Below are positions 61,429 through 64,000 of a stretch of DNA of 64,000 nt, in pieces. How positions within the stretch are numbered: position 1 is the first letter of the stretch; each line of letters begins with the position of its first letter. The DNA comes from an uncultured Rhodospirillales bacterium (GTDB lineage: Bacteria > Pseudomonadota > Alphaproteobacteria > CAAGCB01 > CAG-977), in the NCBI GenBank assembly GCA_902777205.1, contig CACYSU010000006.1, forward strand, positions 33,599 through 97,598, read 5' to 3'. Position numbers and translations under genes: made by a program. Under the pieces are notes generated by a model that did not search any database, had not been told where the DNA came from, and saw only the letters and a list, made by a program, of their open reading frames with translations.

Positions 61429-61505
61429 CGGAGCGTAGCGCAGTCTGGTAGCGCATTTGATTTGGGATCAAAAGGCCGCTGGTTCGAATCCAGTCGCTCC
61501 GACCA
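61429..61505 (+). tRNA. tRNA-Pro (anticodon TGG)
   Basis: The acceptor CGGAGCG pairs with CGCTCCG; ACCA is encoded. The anticodon arm TTTGA-TTTGGGA-TCAAA gives TGG, the tRNA that reads CCN codons. 77 nt with CCA. A further partial copy of its 3' end lies 170 bases downstream (61660-61675). Confidence 0.97.
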
Positions 61506-63559: not shown

Positions 63560-63662
63560 CGGCGAAAGCGGCGCGTTGAAAAACGTCGCGCGGGCGTTGC
63601 GAAAGGCGGCAATGATTTTGCCGCTTTTCTTTTGCCCGCTTTTCAGGTATCCTGATTATGTT
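63560..63662 (+). other. Short gap with terminator of the SDR gene
   Basis: The hairpin aaaggcggcaa (63602-63612) with ttgccgctttt (63618-63628) and a following T-rich stretch ends SDR transcription. A possible weak promoter (TTGCCC at 63632, TATGTT at 63657) precedes the structured region. Confidence 0.6.
63602..63630 (+). terminator. Rho-independent terminator after the SDR gene
   Basis: gcggcaa (63606-63612) pairs with ttgccgc (63618-63624), extended by aaag/cttt, followed by a T-rich tail. Confidence 0.85.
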
Positions 63663-63940
63663 CGCACGGGATTGCCCGTGCGGAAAGTGCCTTAGCGGGT
63701 GCGGAGCCTTAGAACAGCTCTCTTAATCTTACTCGGCGCAGAGATGCGCCGTCATCCGTTTGCTTAACGCAAAACGGAAAACATCCCCCGACCGTCCTTG
63801 CCGATGGTTCGGGGAGCTTTTGGCGTATGTTCAGAAGTCCCGATTGCAATCGGATTGCTTTAAAGGTCAAAAGGATCATTTGGTAAGATTATGATTGTTC
63901 TAACTCCCCGATATGGTTTTAAAGCGTTTTCGCTTTTTAT
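63663..63940 (+). ncRNA. Candidate highly structured non-coding RNA with its own terminator
   Basis: No reading frame. A hairpin cgcacggg/cccgtgcg (63663-63682) opens it. Two blocks far apart pair: TTAGAACA (63709-63716) with TGTTCTAA (63896-63903), and TAATCTTAC (63724-63732) with GTAAGATTA (63883-63891), giving 17 bp around an uneven internal loop. Inside lie four more hairpins: cggcgca/tgcgccg (63734-63751), ccgtttgc/gcaaaacgg (63756-63777), ccccga/tcgggg with an inner extension (63786-63814) and the palindrome ccgattgcaatcgg (63840-63853). CGGGGAG (63810-63816) can also pair with CTCCCCG (63904-63910), a pseudoknot or switch. The hairpin aaagcg-tttt-cgcttt followed by T (63921-63939) ends it on the plus strand. 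Identity unknown. Confidence 0.6.
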
Positions 63941-64000
63941 CGTCAAGTTTTAACATCTTGAATTAAAACGGACTTTTGCGATTTTGCTGCCATCTGATTT
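63941..64000. other. AT-rich window end, no gene visible
   Basis: Contains a short inverted repeat gttttaa (63947-63953) with ttaaaac (63963-63969). The downstream gene, if any, lies beyond the window. Confidence 0.4.

Follow-up and report, generated by a model that had tools for sequence, protein, structure and literature searches.

The right edge of the window (by which we mean the whole 64,000-nucleotide stretch analyzed here) carries an RNA that is a variant of the C4 / sRNA-Xcc1 kind and is not listed in Rfam. We think that it probably works as a C4-type antisense attenuator for the next gene, where the pairing of two upstream boxes (a1 and b1) with two boxes in an antisense domain (a' and b') is predicted to decide whether transcription stops at the terminator. 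If this reading holds, bacteria would have turned an RNA of phage immunity into a control device of general use, with many private antisense switches per genome that are placed before surface and DNA-modification genes and, on tumor-inducing and symbiosis plasmids, before traM as well. Three Rfam entries that are kept apart (C4, c4-a1b1 and sRNA-Xcc1) are linked here with an unlisted leader RNA.

The RNA at the end of the contig and its copies

The 278-nt stretch at 63663–63940 (forward strand, as are all features below) folds at -110.2 kcal/mol, compared with a mean of -80.5 (sd 4.6) for 200 dinucleotide shuffles, which gives a z of -6.4 with none of the 200 shuffles as low. A sequence-only reading of this DNA had described a highly structured RNA here, and the folding bears that out. 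The long helix that it had drawn, with an uneven internal loop and four hairpins inside, is present in the minimum-energy fold (63703–63732 with 63883–63907), and the terminator that it had placed after the structure is there as a hairpin with a U-run. It had also called the RNA undescribed and none of tmRNA, RNase P or 6S; scanning the window with Rfam at two settings gave no match to these or to a riboswitch. As to the extent, the stable fold does cover 63663–63940, but the conserved core is narrower, at about 63684–63911. The window also has a tRNA gene at 61429–61502 (Rfam, 71 bits). The window stops where contig C6 (97598 bases) stops, base 64000 being the last of both, so the assembly does not show which gene this copy precedes.

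With window 63640–64000 as query, BLAST gave 15 matches in the window's own genome, and 11 of the 61 genomes searched had matches. A covariance model, R1, was built from 34 of the 37 copies. It matches this genome 17 times and the genomes of its family 76 times, in 11 of the 12; among 385 genomes of the class, 26 have a match, 21 of these being in 13 other families. When the phylum was searched, 8 of 398 genomes matched and all were of the same class, although we do not claim restriction to the class because the share of the 398 that lies outside it was not listed. A fixed-letter pattern picked out 69 stretches in a named genome collection, 66 in records titled Alphaproteobacteria, proteobacterium or Pseudomonadota, many of them from rumen and gut, and 3 in records titled otherwise. 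Since these loci (L101–L169) were found by the fixed letters, the conservation of those letters there is not independent. Three of the RNA-bearing records (L117, L132 and L147) are titled Gastranaerophilales or Erysipelotrichaceae, and the odd titles are likely the result of binning error. Two copies, L042 and L045, are half-copies, one retaining the 5' part alone and the other the 3' part alone, which suggests decay or recombination between copies.

The 5' part of the RNA holds the target boxes. A -10-like hexamer (TATCCT, 63648–63653), seen by eye and found at a similar place in many copies, is a putative promoter; the signal is weak, with such a hexamer in 123 of 162 copies versus 109.6 expected from shuffles. 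The 5' hairpin (63663–63682) is part of the minimum-energy fold, and its sequence is variable between copies in the alignment. Hairpin P1 (63687–63702) has 96.6% of alignment cells paired and two-sided changes in 4 of 6 pairs. The TTAGC at 63692–63696, which had been likened to a retron branch site, is present but turns out to be the variable loop of this hairpin. Hairpin P2 (63703–63720, 73.5% of cells paired) carries box a1 (UUAGAACA, 63709–63716) in its loop. Its GGAG also pairs with CUCC at 63904–63907, and each of those four pairs has a two-sided change in at least one copy. Box b1 (AAUCUUAC) follows at 63725–63732. Next come hairpin P5 (63734–63751, 96.5% of cells paired, two-sided changes in 3 of 5 pairs) and hairpin P6 (63756–63777, 70% of cells, 4 of 6 pairs). 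The 5' strand of P7 (63785–63791) pairs with 63809–63814 and so blocks the C4-like stem; 98.5% of its cells are paired, and since it has no two-sided change at all, covariation speaks neither for nor against it.

The antisense domain, similar to C4 and sRNA-Xcc1, occupies 63806–63911 and is closed by an outer stem of 63809–63816 with 63904–63911. A second model, R2, matches the window copy at 63807–63915 with 72.1 bits, the window copy itself being among the 53 sequences behind the model. Inside the stem is hairpin P8/P9 (63817–63873) with conserved UAUGUUCAGA and UUUAAAG and two-sided changes in 7 of 8 P8 pairs, and then hairpin P10 (63874–63896), seen in the sequence, with 50% of cells paired where the alignment is poor. 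The loop of P10 holds box b' (GUAAGAUU, 63883–63890), the partner of b1. Box a' (UGUUCUAA, 63896–63903), the partner of a1, lies directly 5' of the 3' strand of the stem, placed as a' is in phage P1 C4.

Behind the domain, the terminator-like hairpin and U-run at 63921–63939 were recognized from the sequence and are common to copies L003, L009 and L012; this hairpin is unlike the CCRCC..GGYGG terminator of most copies. The window copy and these same three also have a common sequence after CTCCCCGA (window 63912–64000), at or near contig ends. By eye it contains a 17-codon frame (MVLKRFRFLS...) with mostly synonymous differences; in G006:C19 it is followed by a serine-recombinase-like ORF.

Box pairing and two alternative folds

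Fold A. In this fold GGAG pairs with CUCC, a1 with a' and b1 with b', around P5, P6, P7 and P8. We scored it on a MAFFT alignment that had not been fitted to any structure and that held 34 of the 37 BLAST-found copies, leaving out L026 (the same RNA as L020) and the half-copies L042 and L045. In this alignment 85.7% of cells pair (79.0 when shuffled), a value that none of 500 shuffles reached. Two-sided changes occur in 34 of 52 pairs, where the shuffled mean is 19.5, no shuffle of 500 was as high, and structures slid along the alignment gave 14–18. The outer part of the long helix has such changes in 9 of 12 pairs. Its inner part, b1 with b', is badly aligned in the MAFFT alignment (46% of cells paired), and it does co-vary when tested copy by copy.

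The copy-by-copy test covered 140 of 163 copies, as 23 had no recognizable 3' stem strand, and its permutations ignore relatedness, which is close among some of the 163 copies. With that in mind, a1 pairs with its own a' better than with swapped partners (15.0 versus 9.6, 0 of 1000 permutations), and the same is true for b1 and b' (15.3 versus 10.4, 0 of 1000). The crossed combination of b1 with a' was at chance (235 of 1000 permutations). Crossing a1 with b' did exceed the permutations (12.6 versus 10.8, 0 of 1000), probably owing to overlap between the two search windows. For the whole a1b1:a'b' duplex over all 163 copies, own pairing came to -28.8 versus -18.5 for swapped partners, and in 11 copies the self-pairing was worse than the median swap. 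Covariation is thus found in the closing duplex that had been predicted from the sequence, and the possible pseudoknot predicted with it gains support as a pseudoknot-like pairing of the boxes.

Fold B. Here the outer stem of UCGGGGAG with CUCCCCGA closes around P8/P9 and P10, and GAGC is free to pair with GCUC. Two-sided changes were counted in 24 of 43 pairs (14.1 when shuffled, 0 of 500 as high). The outer stem hardly varies, with 98.2% of cells paired and a two-sided change in 1 of 8 pairs. Beyond six pairs the stem continues for 4.2 bp with its own partner versus 3.6 bp with swapped ones (0 of 2000 permutations, on 130 of the 163 copies with 33 left out). Of 140 copies, 123 have a GGW close to where the stem begins, a count that has no chance control.

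Homology to sRNA-Xcc1 and proposed kinship with C4

The annotated order in the phage P1 record is promoters, putative C4 target sites a1 and b1, C4 RNA, a2 and b2, and icd, and Rfam matches this region with C4 (68.8 bits) and c4-a1b1 (51.0 bits). The RNA described here has the same order of parts as C4 and c4-a1b1 of phages P1 and P7 (RF01695, RF03163), namely a promoter, a hairpin, a1 in a hairpin loop, b1 and the antisense domain. By its sequence and the counts for fold B, that domain has the layout of phage P1 C4: an outer stem, two hairpins, b' in the loop of the last one and a' before the 3' stem strand. Even the stem start is similar (AUGGU in the window RNA, UAUGGU in phage P1). It differs from phage P1 in standing with other genes and in having a terminator instead of a2 and b2 at the ribosome-binding site. 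The downstream a2/b2 boxes, which are the tested target in phage P1, were absent when we looked for them in 158 copies (mean z 0.05, 8 of the 158 below -2; another 5 of the 163 had too little downstream DNA). Because a1 and b1 are the only target boxes found, the role of such upstream boxes in C4 systems is directly testable here.

The window copy has no Rfam match to C4, c4-a1b1 or sRNA-Xcc1 even at E 10. Two R1 homologues, picked because a first scan had flagged them, have sub-threshold matches in their 3' halves: L189 to sRNA-Xcc1 with 32.8 bits (cut-off 53) and to C4 with 26 bits (cut-off 45), and L235 to sRNA-Xcc1 with 29.6 bits (cut-off 53). There are four places (G181:C32, G198:C1, G368:C1 and G005:C34) where R1 and the sRNA-Xcc1 model RF02221 both match on the same strand. 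In a search with R1, phage P1 C4 was not found (the best plus-strand score was 1.6 bits) and neither was any of 15 RF02221 loci. R2 covers the 3' domain and was built from R1-type domains without any sRNA-Xcc1 locus. With it, 4 of the 15 RF02221 loci are matched in register at E 0.003 or better; the remaining 11 do not reach that level, and phage P1 C4 is not detected.

For sRNA-Xcc1, Rfam models the 87-nt 3' domain only. We found that 12 of the 15 RF02221 loci (L242–L256) have a complement of their own a'b' part upstream, outside this 87-nt model, with at most 10 of 200 shuffles as good; 2 of the 15 have one downstream, and phage P1 has both. Locus L248 also has a terminator and a gene behind it, as the RNA here does. 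The central loop is AAUACAAUACCC..GGGAAUAA in sRNA-Xcc1 and UAUGUUCAGA..UUUAAAG in our RNA. The two share the same C4-like domain, with models matching in both directions at some loci, and the matches of R1, R2 and RF02221 support homology of the 3' domain to sRNA-Xcc1. The proposed kinship with phage P1 C4 rests on the layout, one sub-threshold Rfam match and the chain via sRNA-Xcc1.

Related RNAs have been reported in other settings. In Xanthomonas integron cassettes sRNA-Xcc1 lies upstream of symE (PMC12444791), and it has been described as an sRNA with many predicted targets (PMC2996969). Acinetobacter baumannii has multi-copy group 1 C4-like sRNAs, which resemble the RNA here in their many copies per genome and variable a'; C4-like sRNAs of this species start with GGW, and in phage P1 the cut that RNase P makes in C4 is at the 5' end of the stem (PMC5320573). 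The A. baumannii RNAs are treated there as sRNAs with distant targets, and the passages that we covered describe no terminator-gene arrangement. In the literature that we covered, which included few subscription papers, we found no report of this leader RNA or of a C4-like RNA before traM.

Downstream genes, a probable attenuator and other readings

A same-strand ORF of at least 60 aa starts within 130 nt downstream in 147 of 163 distinct copies, and several of the other 16 end at a contig edge. Of 158 copies, 93 have a terminator of the strict CCRCC..GGYGG pattern, and with looser criteria a terminator helix is seen in 108 of 163. Genes for the cell surface, the sugar coat or DNA modification come directly after several of the copies. 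Family scans were done on 137 of the 147 downstream ORFs, with ten left out (L038, the second of L037, L122, L136, L140, L146, L102, L205, L215 and L009). Among the 25 of 67 Pfam families listed for these 137 proteins, the most frequent were glycosyltransferase 2 (9) and HTH_3 (7), followed by EcoRI methylase, RgpF and PEGA (5 each) and TraM (4); we claim no enrichment, as there is no genome background to set these counts against. Outer-membrane barrels, polymorphic membrane repeats, DNA methylases and pilin families are also among the listed families.

In 101 of the 108 terminator-bearing copies fold A is the more stable fold, with a median gap of 16.2 kcal/mol, and the C4-like stem and the terminator overlap in 101 of the 108. 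In 90 of the 108, fold B makes the terminator weaker, by a median of 2.7 kcal/mol, and in 5 it does the opposite, so that the effect is moderate. From these results we infer an attenuator that is off by default and whose release needs occupied upstream boxes. By default, a1b1 would pair with a'b' within one molecule, the C4-like stem would stay open, the terminator would form and the gene would be off. Should a1 and b1 be occupied, most simply by a processed C4-like RNA made from a second transcript of that copy, the outer stem of the C4-like domain would close, the terminator would be weaker by about 3 kcal/mol, and transcription would pass. RNase P, the processor of phage P1 C4, would be expected to act at the GGU that immediately precedes the stem. 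Because the boxes vary between copies, the RNA from one copy would act mainly on that copy. For the window copy the coupling of fold and terminator is less certain, since its terminator is another hairpin without stem overlap.

There are other ways to read these data. In phage P1, C4 has a second target, and the RNA here could likewise be an sRNA gene in its own right, with a 3' domain that is processed and then represses distant mRNAs, the next gene being a mere neighbor; the many predicted targets of sRNA-Xcc1 (PMC2996969) and the multi-copy sRNAs of A. baumannii (PMC5320573) would agree with this. We judge it possible but rather unlikely, given that the same-strand ORF lies so close in most copies and that a' and b' are hidden by the default fold in most of them. 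In addition, an exact-match search with one pattern, the a1..b1 sequence of the window, found no other place in its own genome except its own a'b' complement. A leader that senses a ligand or a protein, such as a riboswitch or a processive antitermination RNA, could use the same two mutually exclusive folds and the terminator directly before the gene, and the unpaired UAUGUUCAGA and UUUAAAG are as strongly conserved as one might expect of it. The box pairing would then be merely structural, yet the boxes vary between copies and stay complementary, which a ligand pocket does not need. Since the layout is also that of a1-b1-C4 in phage P1 and the downstream genes share no metabolite, we consider a sensing leader improbable.

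It would be more surprising still if the RNA were a mobile repeat, carried with a recombinase-linked element and spread by selfishness rather than for regulation. The sequence shared after CTCCCCGA by the window copy and three others, at or near contig ends, would fit such an element, as would the serine-recombinase-like ORF in G006:C19, but most copies lack that sequence and are followed by unrelated genes, and an exact scan of viral contigs with the same kind of fixed-letter pattern gave no match. Least credible of all is the guide RNA or retron RNA that the sequence-only reading had brought up. It had compared the long duplex interrupted by an internal loop to tracrRNA, OMEGA guides and retrons, a comparison that the analysis does not support: what closes the structure is sense-antisense pairing of a1b1 with a'b', as in a C4-like system, which explains the layout, and TTAGC is not conserved. 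No cas9, iscB, tnpB or reverse transcriptase was among the listed Pfam families (25 of 67) for the 137 first-downstream ORFs of relatives that were scanned, out of 147.

The attenuator that we favor could be taken one step further, into a bistable switch made of RNA only. Once processed, the C4-like RNA of a copy would capture a1 and b1 on other transcripts from that copy; their C4-like stems would then close, the terminator would fail and more C4-like RNA would be released. We put this forward tentatively and think it doubtful. If true, surface and restriction-modification genes would have heritable on and off states without any change in DNA, each gene under a private switch of its own. On Ti and symbiosis plasmids traM, the brake on quorum sensing, would then be gated by this module too.

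A distant member of the RNA is matched by 250 plasmid records. R1 matches all 12 of the plasmid stretches that we fetched, with E from 2e-13 to 4e-6. The next gene on the ten annotated stretches is traM in 4 and an HTH regulator in 2, the rest being hypothetical or other; two stretches have no annotation there. The plasmid versions have the hairpin GCGGGGGCGYACCGC instead of a U-run terminator. A hairpin close to GCGGGGGCGYACCGC is found behind all twelve (L230–L241) although the next genes differ.

The Agrobacterium Ti plasmid reportedly has an sRNA named QfsR (Diel et al. 2019). QfsR is a regulatory RNA tied to quorum sensing (PMC7912708), and our RNA precedes traM on Ti-type plasmids; we liken the two by plasmid type and the quorum-sensing link alone. 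On pTiBo542 (L236, 3505–3750) and on other listed Ti plasmids, the RNA and traM come right after a ProQ/FinO-family gene. Proteins of the ProQ/FinO family are chaperones that bind antisense RNAs.
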